Below are positions 2,100 to 63,112 of a stretch of 64,000 nucleotides of DNA, piece after piece. Origin of the DNA: Gemmatimonadaceae bacterium (lineage in GTDB: Bacteria; Gemmatimonadota; Gemmatimonadetes; Gemmatimonadales; Gemmatimonadaceae); contig DASXUN010000004.1 in assembly GCA_036504815.1 (NCBI GenBank), forward strand, positions 62,001-126,000, written 5' to 3'. The notes beneath the pieces are model-generated. The model made no database searches. It had not been told where the DNA came from and saw only the letters and a list, made by a program, of their open reading frames with translations. The translations under genes were made by a program, and so were the position numbers. Within the stretch, counting starts at the first letter, position 1, and the number at the start of each line of letters is the position of its first letter.

Positions 2100-3134
2100 T
2101 CAGTCGTCCCGCCGGAAGGCGCGCAGGTGCGCGCTGCGGGCGCGCACGTTGTGCGCCACTTCCGCGTCGGTCGCGGTGATCGGCTTGCGGGTGAGCAGCG
2201 TGCCCAAGGGGCGGCCTCGACAGGTGCAGAACGGTTGCTTCGGCGGACAGACGCACGACGACGCCCACTCACGGAAGGCCAGCTTCACGCGCCGGTCCTC
2301 CCCCGAGTGATACGCAATCACTGCGAGGACGCCCCGCGGCGTGAGTCGGTCACGCAGCGCCGGTAGGGCGCGCTCCAGCCCCGCGAGTTCGTCGTTCACC
2401 GCGATGCGCACCGCCTGAAACAGGCGGGCAAAGTCGCCCGGACCGCTGCGCGGACCAAGGACGGCGCGAATCGCGCCCACGAAGTCGTCGCTCACCGCGA
2501 ACGGGCGCCGCTCGCGTCGCCGCACCACCTCGTCCGCCAACCGCCGCCCCTTCGGTTCGTCGCCGTAGTCCTTGAAGGCGTCCGCGAGATCCGCATGCTC
2601 GGCGTAGTTGAGGAAATCCGCGGCGGAGTGCCAGGAGGAACGGCTGACGGGCGACGGGAGACGGGAGACGGGAGAGCCGTCTTCCGTCTCCCCGCCGCCG
2701 TCGGCCATCGGCCATCCGCCATCCGCCATCTCTCCGCCCCCGCGCCAATCCATCGCCCCACCAAGCGGCGCCCCCTCGCGGAACGAGAACCCGCGCGCAT
2801 CGTCGTCGATCTGGTGTGATGACACACCCAGGTCGAGCAGGATCGCGTCGAACCGCGCCGTATCGGGAAGCAGCGCGTCGACGTCGGCGTAGTTGCCGCG
2901 CACCGCATGGAACCGCCCGTCGGTGATGGCCGGCTGCAGTCGCCGCGACGCCTCGGCAATCGCCGTCCGGTCGCGGTCGATGCCCGTGACGTCCATGCCG
3001 GCGTCGAGCAGGGCCGCGGCATGGCCGCCCCCGCCGAGCGTGCAGTCGAGGGCATGCGACGCCCCCGCGAACAGGGCGAGGATCTCCTCGACCAGCACCG
3101 GCGCGTGGTAGGCGGAATCGTAGCGCGTGGTCAC
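2100..3134 (-). CDS. rsmH: 16S rRNA (cytosine1402-N4)-methyltransferase RsmH with a repeat-derived insert
   Basis: SAM-dependent methylation of C1402 in 16S rRNA. The N-terminus has the family signature HAPVLVEEIL, then LDCTLGGGGHA (SAM-binding loop), DAILLDLGVSSHQID, and later FQAVRIAVNDEL and ARSAHLRA near the C-terminus. At 344 residues it is some 30 longer than typical RsmH. The excess lies between the MDW motif and SAADFLNYAE and is encoded by heptanucleotide repeats (2646-2737), giving a MADGG-type low-complexity stretch in frame. It maps to a loop ahead of the helical insertion domain and may be tolerated, but this is inference. I chose the GTG giving VTTRYDSAYHAP; upstream in-frame ATGs would add a basic tail not seen in the family. 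First gene of the division cluster here; no mraZ is adjacent. Confidence 0.95.
   Translation of the reverse strand: MTTRYDSAYHAPVLVEEILALFAGASHALDCTLGGGGHAAALLDAGMDVTGIDRDRTAIAEASRRLQPAITDGRFHAVRGNYADVDALLPDTARFDAILLDLGVSSHQIDDDARGFSFREGAPLGGAMDWRGGGEMADGGWPMADGGGETEDGSPVSRLPSPVSRSSWHSAADFLNYAEHADLADAFKDYGDEPKGRRLADEVVRRRERRPFAVSDDFVGAIRAVLGPRSGPGDFARLFQAVRIAVNDELAGLERALPALRDRLTPRGVLAVIAYHSGEDRRVKLAFREWASSCVCPPKQPFCTCRGRPLGTLLTRKPITATDAEVAHNVRARSAHLRAFRRDD
2646..2737. repeat. Heptanucleotide repeat arrays inside rsmH
   Basis: Two 7-bp tandem arrays sit inside the rsmH reading frame. The first is about four copies of GACGGGA (first copy GACGGGC) followed by an inverted partner CCGTCTTCCGTCTCC. 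The second is four copies of GGCCATC or CGCCATC. Because 3 x 7 = 21, the peptide repeats every seven residues (ADGGWPM). The same words occur outside genes at 62.76 kb and inside ileS. Confidence 0.85.
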
Positions 3135-3265
3135 AATGACGATTGGACTGGGGCCAACTATAGACGATACACCCGACCCGTCGGAAACGGGGCGCTGGCC
3201 TCGCGCGCGGGCGCGCCCGCGCACTGGCGCACGCATGCGCGCGAGGCTCATACCCCGAAAGCAGG

Positions 3266-21411: not shown

Positions 21412-24400
21412 TCAGGATACCTTTCGAAGTGCGAGGGTAGCTGGCACGCCATCGAGATCGGCGGTCGTGCCGGGGGGAGCATCGGGGGCAATCGTGTCCG
21501 CGATGTGCAGCTGCAGCGTCAGCGTTTCGTCACAGATCCAGCCGCGGTGGGCGTCCACCGCGTCGTGCAGGGCGGCCGGGCCGGCCACCCACAGCGTGAT
21601 GCGGTCGCTCACGTTCAGCCCCGATTCCTTGCGGAAGCGCTGCACGCGGCTCACCAGCTCGCGGGCGAGACCCTCGCGCCGCAGCGCGTCGGTCAGCGTG
21701 GGATCGACGGCGGCAAAGCGCATGCCGTCCTGCGACACGACGAGCGATCCGCTCGCCTTGCGCACCACCGTGAGGTCCTCGGCGTCGAGCGGATGCGAGT
21801 GCCCGCCGACGGTGATGTGCACCACCTCGCCGCGCTCGAACGCCAGCAGCGTGGCGCTGTGCAGCGCATTCACGGCCTTGGCGGCCTGCGGCGTCTCCTT
21901 GCCCCACTTCTTGCCGAGGGAGCGGAAGTTCGCCTTGGCTTCGAGCGACACCAGCGAGTCGGCCGAGCCGAGGAACTCCACCGCCTTCACGTTGAGCTCG
22001 CTCGCGAGCAGGGGCACGAGTTCGTCGAGCAGCGCTTGCGGCGCCTCGCCGGCCACGCAGACGAGCCGCGCGAGCGGCTGGCGCACCTTGAGGCCGGCCT
22101 CCTCGCGCGCGGCGCGGCCGAGCGTCGCCAGCGCACGCACCTCGCGCATCGCCGCCTCCAGCGGAAGGTCGCGCGCCGGCGCACCCTCGCGCACGTAGCG
22201 GGCCAGGTGCACCGAACTCCCGGTGAGCGCGCGATGAATCCAGTCGCTCACGAACGGCGCGAACGGCGCCAGCAGGCGCGAGACGACGGTGAGCACCTCG
22301 TGCAGCGTCGCGAACGCCGCGCGGTTCCCGTCGCCATCCACCTCGTAGAAGCGCCCGCGCGACAGCCGCACGTACCAGTTGGCCACGTCCTCGGTCACGA
22401 ACTCCATCAGCGCGCGCGACGCCGCCGTGGCGTCGTAGCGCTGCAACTCGGCGTCCACCTCGGCCTCCACCGCGGCGAGCCGCGACAGCACCCAGCGGTC
22501 GAGCAGCGGGCGGTCGGCCACGGCCGGATCGGCCGCCGACGGCGCCCACCCGAAGTTCGCGTACTGCGCGAAGATGCCGTTGTAGACGTTCTTGAGCGTG
22601 ACGAGAAAGCGTCCCGCCGTCTCGCGGATCACCTGCTCGTCGAAGCGCCGCGGCACCCAGATCTGGCTGGACGCGACGAGGAAGAGCCGCACCGCATCGG
22701 CGCCGTGGCGCTCGATCACCTGCCACGGATCCACGGTGTTGCCGCGCGTCTTCGACATCTTCTGGCCGTTCGCATCGAGCACCAGGTCGTTCACCACCAC
22801 GGCCTTGTACGGCTCGGCGACGCCCGGCGGCAGGAAATGCCCGCCCGACTTGTGCGAGTCCACTGCGTAGGCGTCGATGTCGCGCGAAAGGTCACCATGC
22901 GAGCGCGCCGCCGCGTCCTTCTCCCGTCTCCCGTCTCCCGTCTTCCGTCCGTCGTTCGGATGCAACGCATCCCCAAGTCCCGTCGCAATCGCGAGCAGCG
23001 AGTAGAACCACCCGCGCGTCTGGTCCACGCCCTCGGCGATGAAGTCGCCCGGATACTGCTGCGCGAATTCCTCGCGATGCTCGAACGGGAAGTGCCACTG
23101 CGCAAACGGCATCGAGCCCGAGTCGAACCAGGTGTCGATGACTTCCGGCACGCGGCGCATCGTCCCGTCGCATTCGCTGCACGGCCAGGTGTAGCCGTCG
23201 ATGTGCGGCTTGTGCGGGTCGAAGTCGGCGCCGAGCGTCCGGCCCGTCTGCACCGCGAGGTGCGCAAAGCTGCCAATCACCTCGCGGTGCGACGACTCGG
23301 CGTCGCAGACCCAGACCGGGAGCGGCGTCCCCCAGAAGCGGTCGCGCGAGATCGCCCAGTCGATGTTGTTCTCGAGCCAGCTGCCAAACCGCCCGGCCCC
23401 GACTTCGGCCGGGTTCCAGTTCACGTGCCGGTTGCGCTCGAGCATCGCGTCCTTGAACGCCGTCGTGCGCACGAACCACGACGAGCGCGCGTAGTACAAC
23501 AGCGGCGTCTTGCAGCGCCAGCAGTGGGGATAGCTGTGCGTGAGGCGTCCGTCCTTGAACAGCACGCCGCGCCGCTTGAGCTCCTCGATGATGACGGGAT
23601 CGGCGGCCTTCACGAACATCCCGCCAACCAGCGGCATCCCCTCCGGGAACTCGCCGCGCGCGTTGACCGGCTGCAGGAAGGCCAGCTCGAACTGCTGTCC
23701 CGCCTGGTAGTCGTCCGCGCCGAACGCGGGCGCCAGGTGCACCACGCCGGTGCCGTCGTCCGCGGAGACGAAACCGGTCGTCACGATGATCTCGCGCGCC
23801 CCGTCGGCGAACGCCATCCAGTCGAGCGGTCGCTGATAGTGCGCGCCGGCCAGCGCCGTCCCCGGGAACGTCGTCACCACGTCCCAGCGATCCTGCCAGT
23901 CGCCGCCCAGCACCGCGCTCACGCGCGCCTCGGCGAGGATCACCGTGTGCGTTGCCCCCTTCTTGCGCTTGAGTTCGGCGTACGTGAGATCCGGGCTCAC
24001 CGCCAGCGCGGCATTCGACACGAGCGTCCACGGCGTCGTCGTCCAGACGAGGATGCGGCGCTCTCCCTCGGGCCCCGCCTCGCGCAGCGGCAGCTGCAGG
24101 TAGACGGACGGATCCTCGACGTCCTCGTAGCCCTGCGCCACCTCATGGCTCGAGAGCGCCGTGCCGCACCGCGGGCAGTACGGCAGGATCTTGTGCCCCT
24201 GGTACAGCAAGCCCTTCGCGTGCAGCATCGAGAGCGCCCACCAGACGCTTTCGATGTACGCATTGTGGTACGTGACGTACGCGTGCTCGTAGTCGAGCCA
24301 GAAGGCGATGCGGTTGGACAGCTTCTCCCAGTCCTCGCGATAGCGGAACACGCTCTCGCGGCAGCGGCGGTTGAACTCCGCCACGCCGACGCGCTCGATG

Positions 24401-24744
24401 TCCTGCTTGCCGCTGATGCCGAGTTCCTTCTCGACCTCGATTTCCACGGGGAGGCCGTGCGTGTCCCATCCCGCCTTGCGATCCACCCGGAAGCCCTGCA
24501 TGTGCCGATGCCGGCAGAAGAGGTCCTTGATGGTGCGCGCAAAGACGTGATGGATGCCCGGCTTGCCGTTGGCGGTGGGCGGCCCCTCGAAGAAGACCCA
24601 GCGCGGCGCGCCGGCGCGCGCGGCGAGCGACGCCTCGAAGAGCTTCTCGTCGCGCCAGCGCTCGAGCAGTTCGCGCTCCACCGCGTCGGCCGGACGCTCC
24701 GGCGGCAGCGGCGCAAAACGCGGGGTCAGTTCCACAACGGTCAC
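21412..24744 (-). CDS. ileS: Isoleucyl-tRNA synthetase with repeat-derived insert
   Basis: Charges tRNA-Ile, with editing of Val. The chain has 1110 residues. The class I first motif reads [11 protein letters not shown] (residues about 56-66), the HIGH variant of the eukaryote-like/IleS2 clade also seen in Bacteroidetes. KMSKT lies at 662-666. The CP1 editing domain ([32 protein letters not shown]) and the [12 protein letters not shown] block are intact. Between [14 protein letters not shown] and [11 protein letters not shown], just before KMSK, there is an extra stretch of about 45 residues. It starts with [11 protein letters not shown], encoded by the heptamer repeats also seen in rsmH. The GTG start overlaps the punA stop (GTGA). 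Catalytic motifs are complete, so the enzyme is presumably active. Confidence 0.96.
22817..22966. repeat. Heptamer repeat and extra segment inside ileS
   Basis: Plus-strand copies of TCCCGTC (the complement of GACGGGA in rsmH) run tandemly at about 22919-22952, with a few substitutions. They lie in an approximately 150-bp extra segment relative to what I recall of the IleS family, between codons for ATGLG and PYKAV. The reading frame is preserved. Exact borders need an alignment. Confidence 0.75.
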
Positions 24745-25589
24745 AGGCGCTCCATCACGCCGCGGACGAGCGCTTCGAGCTGCGGCTCGGCGGTCCCGGC
24801 ATTGGCAAGGATCTTGGCGAGGTTCGCGGGCTCGAGCGCGTCGGGCAGGCATTGATCGGTGATGATCGAGACGCCCATCACCCGCATCCCCGCCTGCACG
24901 GCGACAATCACCTCGGGAACCGTGCTCATGCCGACGACGTCGGCGCCGATCGCGCGCAGCATCCGGTACTCGGCGCGCGTCTCGAGGTTGGGCCCCGACA
25001 CGGCCACGTACACGCCTTCGCGCAGCGTGATGCCGCGCTCGGCCGCCACCTGACGGGCGATGGCACGCAGCCCCGGGTCGTACGGCGCGCTCATGTCGGG
25101 AAAGCGATCGCCGAACGCCGTGTCATGCGGCCCGATGAGCGGATTGTCGCCCAGCAGGTTGATGTGGTCGGAGATCAGCATCAGGTCGCCCGGCGCCCAC
25201 AACGGATGCATGCCGCCGCAGGCATTCGAGACGAGCAGCGTCGTCGCCCCGAGCGCGCGCAGGACGCGCACCGGAAACGTCACCTGCTGCAGCGCGTACC
25301 CTTCGTACCGGTGAAACCGCCCCTGCATCGCGATGACGCGCCGCCCGGCCAGCGTCCCCACGAGCAATCGACCCGCGTGCGACTCGACCGTCGACAGCGG
25401 GAAGCCGGGGATGTCGCCGTACGGGATGGCGCACTCCACCGCGATCGCCTTGCCCACCGCCCCGAGTCCCGTGCCGAGTATGAGCGCGACGTCCGGCACG
25501 AGGGCGGTCCGCGCGCGCACGGCGCGCACCGCCGCATCAACGGCGGCGGTCGTGTGGGCGTGCTCGGATCCAGGAAAGCGGACGGACAT
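24741..25589 (-). CDS. punA: Purine nucleoside phosphorylase (PNP-I, trimeric type)
   Basis: Phosphorolysis of purine nucleosides in the salvage pathway. The protein has 282 residues. Family blocks: [11 protein letters not shown] (phosphate loop), [50 protein letters not shown] and [13 protein letters not shown], where the Glu is the purine contact. Then come [12 protein letters not shown] and [12 protein letters not shown]. The last block has Asp where mammalian PNP has the base-reading Asn243. This may widen specificity towards 6-aminopurines, though related bacterial enzymes seem to share it. It lies between divIVA and ileS in a co-oriented, tightly spaced run. Confidence 0.92.
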
Positions 25590-26890: not shown

Positions 26891-27050
26891 ACTTAGGATT
26901 GGGAATCCGGAACGGGATTCCGGACCACGACCCCGGAAAGCGATTGGCGACGGCCCGGCATCCCGCCGAGCCATCGCCAATCGCAATCGCCAATCGCAAT
27001 CGTCAATCGAAGTCCTGAATCCCAATCCGAATTCCCAATCCTCAATCAGC
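26891..27050. repeat. Dispersed repeat element, inverted-pair form (copy 1)
   Basis: Fills the gap between yggS and ftsH and ends 1 bp from the ftsH stop. The left arm begins TTAGGATTGGGAATCCGG. The right arm, read on the complementary strand, begins TGAGGATTGGGAATTCGG, so the two form a long imperfect inverted repeat. Inside are alternating words of the type CAATCGC/CAATCG. The same consensus arm occurs at 40.4, 44.6 and 62.7 kb. When transcribed it could fold into a long hairpin. Confidence 0.85.
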
Positions 27051-46207: not shown

Positions 46208-46294
46208 ACCGTGCACCACACCCTGCACCGTTCCCGAGCACCACACCCTGTACCGTGCCCGAACACCACACCCTGTACCGCGCCCCTGCACCAC
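46208..46294. repeat. 25-bp tandem repeat
   Basis: Two full 25-bp units at 46227-46251 and 46252-46276 (core CACCACACCCTGTACCG, differing by two bases) are flanked by a shortened unit on each side. They lie between the nitronate monooxygenase stop and the TIGR00266 gene. Longer frames reading through them are not needed by any gene. Confidence 0.85.
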
Positions 46295-62697: not shown

Positions 62698-62788
62698 CGA
62701 TTGAGGATATGGAATTCGGATCGGGATTGAGGATCGCGACTGAGGACGGCGATTGGCGATTCGGCCGTCCGCCATCGGCCATCGGCCA
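62698..62788. repeat. Dispersed repeat element, single arm plus heptamers (copy 4)
   Basis: ATTGAGGATATGGAATTCGG, then ATCGGGATTGAGGATCGCG and GACGGCGATTGGCGAT match the arm consensus. It is followed by three 7-mers CGCCATC/GGCCATC identical to those inside rsmH. The array runs directly into the ftsB stop codon (62789-62791). It joins the two repeat types in one place. Confidence 0.85.
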
Positions 62789-63112
62789 TCACTTGCCCTT
62801 ATCCGAATCCTCCGCAAACCGGTACAGCATCTCCTTCTCCCCCTTCACCATCCCGAACTCCTCGCGCGCCAGGCGCTCCTGCACCAGCGGGTCGGTCTCG
62901 ATGGATTTCTTCCATCGCGACAGGCTGTCCACCTGGCGCTGCAACGAGTCTACTTCGTGGCGCAAGACGGCCAGGCGTCGGCTCTGGCGGACGAGATCCG
63001 TCGTGCCGTATTCCCCGCCCTGCACCGCGAAGTAGGCCACGCCGAGCGCGACGACCGCCATCGCGATGAGGGCGGCCGGAGACTTCCGGGAGGAGGCTTT
63101 CCTGGGCGGCAT
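62789..63112 (-). CDS. ftsB: FtsB/DivIC-family division protein
   Basis: A 107-residue bitopic protein. Short basic cytoplasmic start (PPRKASSRKS), one membrane helix about 12-30 (PAALIAMAVVALGVAYFAV), then a periplasmic coiled coil (LVRQSRRLAVLRHEVDSLQRQVDSLSRWKK). The conserved end ETDPLVQERLAREEFGMVKGEKEMLYRF is the septum-formation-initiator signature (ARE-x-GMV). It complexes with FtsL. Position next to enolase is the usual eno-ftsB arrangement. Its stop codon abuts repeat copy 4. Confidence 0.93.
   Translation of the reverse strand: MPPRKASSRKSPAALIAMAVVALGVAYFAVQGGEYGTTDLVRQSRRLAVLRHEVDSLQRQVDSLSRWKKSIETDPLVQERLAREEFGMVKGEKEMLYRFAEDSDKGK

Follow-up and report, generated by a model that had tools for sequence, protein, structure and literature searches.

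How does an array of 7-nt words, of the kind that lies between genes, come to be part of the reading frame of an rRNA methyltransferase? The question is raised by a 64,000-nt stretch of Gemmatimonadaceae DNA (hereafter the window), for which a preliminary description had proposed that an intergenic-type repeat became part of the rRNA methyltransferase RsmH, as Rickettsia palindromic elements (RPEs) do in proteins but with another type of sequence. This core idea is upheld by our analysis, although that description had missed the hairpin form of the repeat, its presence in other core proteins and the occurrence of the insert in 6 of 10 members of the genus with changed words. In our best reading, the inserts would be protein-coding palindromic repeats analogous to RPEs and built of heptanucleotides. 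The window is part of contig 4 in a draft genome of 3.5 Mb (G000; 31 contigs, 99.4% complete), related public records are Gemmatimonadetes MAGs, and most of the genomes compared are draft MAGs.

The insert in RsmH

The following features define the locus:

2100..3251, minus strand: rsmH coding sequence, longest open reading frame, 383 residues, with an ATG at 3251
2628..2750, minus strand: linker carrying the insert, residues 168-208, from LGGAM to SAADF, 123 nt, predicted to be disordered
2695..2730, minus strand: 5' arm (coding strand), GATGGCG/GATGGCC heptamers, reading E-M-A-D-G-G-W-P-M-A-D
2646..2675, minus strand: 3' arm (coding strand), TCCCGTC heptamers, encoding a 12-residue peptide
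2663..2692, no strand assigned: inner near-perfect hairpin, GGGAGACGGGAGA-gccg-TCTTCCGTCTCCC

The open reading frame scores 212.5 bits against the RsmH equivalog model TIGR00006, for a cut-off of 154.3; by homology, the GTG at 3134-3132 is a more likely start than the ATG at 3251. TRF detects (GACGGGA)x4.3 at 2646-2675 and (CCGCCAT)x5.1 at 2695-2730, so that the in-frame arrays first noticed in rsmH do lie within the reading frame and within the 123-nt linker. The same LGGAM-SAADF gap measures 15-21 nt in species of the genus without the insert. Between MDW and SAADFLNYAE, the window protein has 39 residues. In this protein the LDMRM motif of RsmH (window 2747-2764) reads LGGAM; LGG[AS]M, LGAAM or LGMAM replaces it throughout the genus, insert or no insert, while other genera and the solved RsmH structures have LDMRM itself.

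An AlphaFold model, computed from 22 family sequences, has a mean pLDDT of 83 but drops under 50 in two stretches, model residues 129-135 and 138-163, which cover most of the insert. The insert is thus predicted to be a disordered loop that joins the methyltransferase core to the helical part. A conserved RsmH domain was rejected as its identity: solved structures align on both sides without it, and outside the genus only short arrays are found (loci L049/L075, L068 and L070). The gene is not a pseudogene either, since the rsmH reading frame is intact in all six species with the insert and is the sole RsmH gene found. Indeed, a single RsmH gene per genome was identified in 10 of 11 genomes of the genus, and none was found in G093. 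Sequencing or assembly error, raised at the outset as a possible refutation, is excluded because independent public assemblies of relatives carry an insert at the same codon.

A dispersed inverted heptamer element

Repeats of period 7 far exceed chance. The window holds four lag-7 regions, against a mean of 0.02 and a maximum of 1 in 100 dinucleotide shuffles, and a chance origin of the RsmH heptamer arrays is excluded. Sampling was extended to 464 kb of G000 and to 272-400 kb from each of five relatives. The 464 kb of G000 contain 26 regions at lag 7 and 16 at its multiple 14, with 0-7 at the other lags between 4 and 13. At 81 family loci (eight fetched by heptamer pattern and hence biased, the remainder unbiased), we counted 34 regions at lag 7, 16 at 14 and 10 at 21, versus 0-3 at every other lag between 4 and 13. 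Genome-wide, three successive GANGGNN words match 263+254 times and the reversed pattern 39+53 times; this excess is conservative because the reversed motif GG.AG can fall inside true elements (GGGAGACGG includes GG.AG). The repeats are 7-nt tandem units well above chance, dispersed and mostly non-coding, as heptanucleotide SSRs are.

The arrays also come in a fixed arrangement. Taking GANGGNN as the F arm and NNCCNTC as the R arm, neighboring arrays in the six sampled genomes of the genus form 26 F..R pairs and no R..F pair. Therefore the element is a hairpin, made of a GANGG arm, a spacer of 5-103 nt and a CCNTC arm, and the RsmH insert is one of hundreds of inverted heptamer elements of the form GANGGNN...NNCCNTC that this Gemmatimonadota MAG contains. 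Within an element, the two arms share their variable letters at a rate of 0.735, compared to 0.600 when arms are shuffled within a genome (p=0.0026). Outside the genus, 17 of 34 arrays have an inverted partner, versus 0 for reversed words.

Based on crude gene calls from codon usage, 20 of 33 elements in the G000 sample are intergenic or sit at the edge of a gene, while non-coding DNA makes up 15% of the sample. Others are in frame: arrays occur in G000 within the genes for IleRS, UvrA, an Fe-S oxidoreductase, an MFS transporter and a two-domain aldehyde dehydrogenase (ALDH), and Lon has them at each end. Two elements of the window bear on the first report that both RsmH words recur between genes at 62.76 kb:

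62699..62790, no strand assigned: intergenic element adjoining a gene end, with GGCCATC words
22917..22949, minus strand: ileS array of GACGGGA words, in frame within the coding sequence 21412-24852, encoding a 12-residue peptide

GGCCATC is indeed present at 62763-62790; GACGGGA is not, its only other occurrence in the window being at 22922-22949, inside ileS.

Some intergenic elements (L243-L262 in G012 and L323-L342 in G062) enclose a long GC-rich stem with A/T flanks. These resemble two-way terminators, as if the heptamer arms lengthened the terminator hairpin. Elsewhere in the window, an ATCGCCA/AATCGCA array at 26973-27047, with periods of 7 and 13 nt, may be this type of element in a second vocabulary, and a 25-nt unit repeated 3.4 times at 46209-46294 is of an unrelated type.

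Shared sites, changing words and arm pairing

Alignment of the RsmH proteins of relatives, proposed as a check in the preliminary description, was informative. Six of ten species (G000, G012, G062, G081, G118 and G119) carry the insert at one shared codon and in one frame; G040, G104, G112 and G120 lack it. The inserts are homologous: their first arms align in a single frame as x-[TM]-[VA]-[DE]-x-[GR]-x-x-[TM]-[VAG]-D, with one residue more in G118 than in the other five, and a W or Y precedes the SAA motif at the end of all six. In a four-gene tree, which is weakly rooted, the carriers belong to one clade with G104 nested within, so that one gain and one loss are enough to explain the distribution. 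Sequence comparison thus indicates that the insert predates the species and that its words have changed since. Beyond the genus this site is short, with the exception of a non-heptamer linker (L035/L036) and small GACGG-type arrays (L049/L075, L068 and L070), which look like separate gains. Conservation of the insert across distant RsmH proteins, which would have spoken against a repeat origin, is not observed.

Each genome has its preferred words. GACGGTG accounts for 54% of sampled array words in G118 and GATGGGA for 35% in G062; G000 uses mostly GATGGCG/GATGGCA, plus GACGGGA, and G012 uses GATGGTA plus GACGGCA. When inserts are masked, the dialect of their own genome is the best fit for 12 of 17 coding inserts and fails for five. 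This result is equalled by 2 of 720 label permutations, a value to be taken as an approximate guide, given that six genomes were sampled and the species are related. The IleRS copy illustrates both inheritance and change: GACGGAAGACGGGA words are common to G000, G012 and G062, and G118, which the tree places as the sister of G000, uses its own main word, GACGGTG. That related species hold inserts at shared spots in their own 7-base words suggests that RsmH-type inserts have been rewritten in place during evolution. In G093, the IleRS loop (L179) contains a 15-nt repeat encoding RTGEP/RTGES where relatives carry heptamers.

Are the two arms kept complementary while words change? At the RsmH site, the insert of the window folds at -69.5 kcal/mol (z -2.4). 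Over the six species, hairpin z ranges from -6.2 to 0.7, three inserts folding little or no better than shuffles, and co-variation between arms is not significant (p=0.17, six species); we therefore observe decay, rather than maintenance, of the RsmH hairpin. The ALDH interdomain linker provides a natural test, because most members of the family possess it. Nine of ten members of the genus have a clear hairpin there; in the tenth, G112, the linker is present and the GANGG signal is absent. Cognate ALDH arms pair better than species-swapped arms in the genus (p=0.0001), and none of 10,000 shuffles matches cognate pairing, whether all 37 genomes are taken or only the 27 outside the genus. Unrelated heptamers, again as inverted pairs, occupy the ALDH linkers (L346-L372) of at least five other genera: GACGCTC in g15, GGGACTC in g16, GGAGAGT in g14, CGGAAGC in g19 and GGGACGC in g20. 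A hairpin z of -2.7 or lower is found for 16 of 19 ALDH linkers with lag-7 arrays and for 0 of 18 without, and many family ALDH linkers are unstructured non-repeat sequences of comparable length.

Origin and upkeep of the inserts

We favor, with fair though incomplete confidence, the view that the RsmH insert is a coding copy of the dispersed heptamer hairpin that entered once, was then rewritten in place through slippage and template switching, and was tolerated in a disordered loop. Its entry, into the exposed loop that separates the methyltransferase core from the helical domain, would date to an ancestor shared by most species of the genus. Its persistence may be owed to words that read without stops, to a total length kept at a multiple of three and to the disorder of the loop. 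Replication slippage by 7 nt would let the arms grow and shrink, and intra-element template switching between arms would preserve their complementarity; these two processes offer what may be the simplest account of the upkeep of the element. For each genome to keep to one vocabulary, something further would be required, be it exchange among copies or a mutational bias common to them. Selection would act as a filter, genic copies requiring stop-free reading and tolerant loops, and the insert would be neutral for RsmH function.

The main rival is recurrent insertion, in which a MITE-like or REP-like mobile hairpin enters a few tolerant loops, old copies are lost and each species comes to show a newly inserted copy, written in its own dialect. 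We consider it a possible, rather less than probable history for these inserts, and it probably does explain the first arrival of elements. The match of coding inserts to their own dialect fits it well, as does the short GACGG-type array at the RsmH loop of another genus (G019/L075; similarly L068 and L070): the relatives G045 and G096 are arrayless, and at least two separate hits on this loop within the family are therefore probable. The six RsmH inserts of the genus, however, align over the first arm in one frame with a shared W/Y before SAA, which points to inheritance, as do the IleRS words common to three species. Visual inspection of the RsmH and IleRS sites disclosed no target duplication. 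Furthermore, the Y1 transposase (PF01797) was found in neither G000, 99.4% complete, nor eight other genomes of the genus, being present in only 2 of 11. A REP system driven by RAYT is therefore unlikely, and mobilization of the RAYT/IS200 type was rejected for G000 on these grounds.

More speculatively, Gemmatimonadaceae may possess a dedicated activity that steps by 7 nt, in the form of an enzyme or of templated repair. It would write inverted heptamer arrays, and rewrite them, at fixed genomic sites in a lineage-specific word, and would drive concerted loop change in essential proteins; we hold this to be improbable. Slightly less credible still is that an RNA or DNA hairpin acting in transcript stability, termination or translation pausing is selected and kept by compensatory change, in genes as between them. 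Co-variation of the ALDH arms within and beyond the genus would agree with such selection, and so would the concentration of sampled elements at gene edges and between genes and the terminator-like stem that some intergenic elements enclose. Yet the RsmH insert is missing from four species, including one nested among carriers, the strength of its hairpin varies, up to a positive z, and selection on pairing alone does not demand wholesale word change. A view of the insert as an ordinary disordered linker of low complexity, evolving at the protein level with incidental heptamers, is very hard to sustain: the 15-nt repeat of the G093 IleRS loop and the unstructured ALDH linkers of similar length speak for it, but protein-level repeats would give periods of 3n and not 7 nt, arrays also occur between genes, and half of those outside the genus have inverted partners where reversed words have none.

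Returning to a single entry followed by rewriting, the resulting element works like the palindromic elements of Rickettsia and Wolbachia and is built like heptanucleotide repeats. With the former it shares palindromes that are scattered through intergenic DNA and also lie in frame within conserved genes, at sites common to orthologues; RPEs and their Wolbachia counterparts encode solvent-exposed segments (PMC3767692, PMC2229807). RPEs differ in being 100-150 bp elements of obligate intracellular alphaproteobacteria, whereas here a 7-bp word is set in opposite orientations, with words that vary by species and genus, in a Gemmatimonadota MAG. Judged from this 7-nt array structure and the changing words, and not from runs of RPE models, the element falls outside the RPE-1 to RPE-7 consensus (about 100-150 bp).

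Heptanucleotide arrays are known from Xanthomonas (GGGAATC), Nostoc (GGGGA(C/T)T), Beggiatoaceae (TAACTGA) and Calothrix (PMC4692102, PMC4679880). They are dispersed, mostly intergenic and near gene ends, and their number and sequence vary among close relatives (PMC4692102); work cited in PMC4679880 describes heptanucleotides as the commonest long repeat class in most genomes and proposes polymerase slippage. In contrast to these arrays, the element described here has inverted pairs, co-varying arms, in-frame copies in core enzymes, and a GANGG core fixed per genus with positions that vary per species. Inverted-repeat template switching has been described in yeast coding DNA (PMC8604942), in the maintenance of RNA hairpins (PMC8794818) and in coding palindromes of Nematomorpha (PMC6649704). 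Those cases likewise involve arm homogenization in protein-coding inverted repeats, with several amino-acid changes at once, but they are single inverted repeats, while our arms are tandem heptamer arrays of a dispersed family.

Within the phylum, the one paper found on repeats deals with short repeats of cultured Gemmatimonadota and relied on exact seeds of 32 bp or more. It reports other size classes, two dense ones of 90 and 150 bp in Gemmatirosa kalamazoonesis (PMC11237797), and its account of these classes mentions neither heptamer arrays nor coding copies. We found no description of heptamer repeats in Gemmatimonadota or Gemmatimonadetes in the open-access literature.

Most protein-coding palindromic repeats described so far come from Rickettsia and Wolbachia, and whether their shared sites reflect old insertions or hotspots is debated; for RPE-4, RPE-6 and RPE-7 this ambiguity is reported explicitly (PMC3767692). 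Gemmatimonadota appear to be a non-rickettsial bacterial group with clearly different words at shared coding sites, so that gain, rewriting and loss can be told apart. This case also connects work on heptanucleotide repeats with work on template switching at inverted repeats, and it supplies many natural replicates, in genes of certain orthology.
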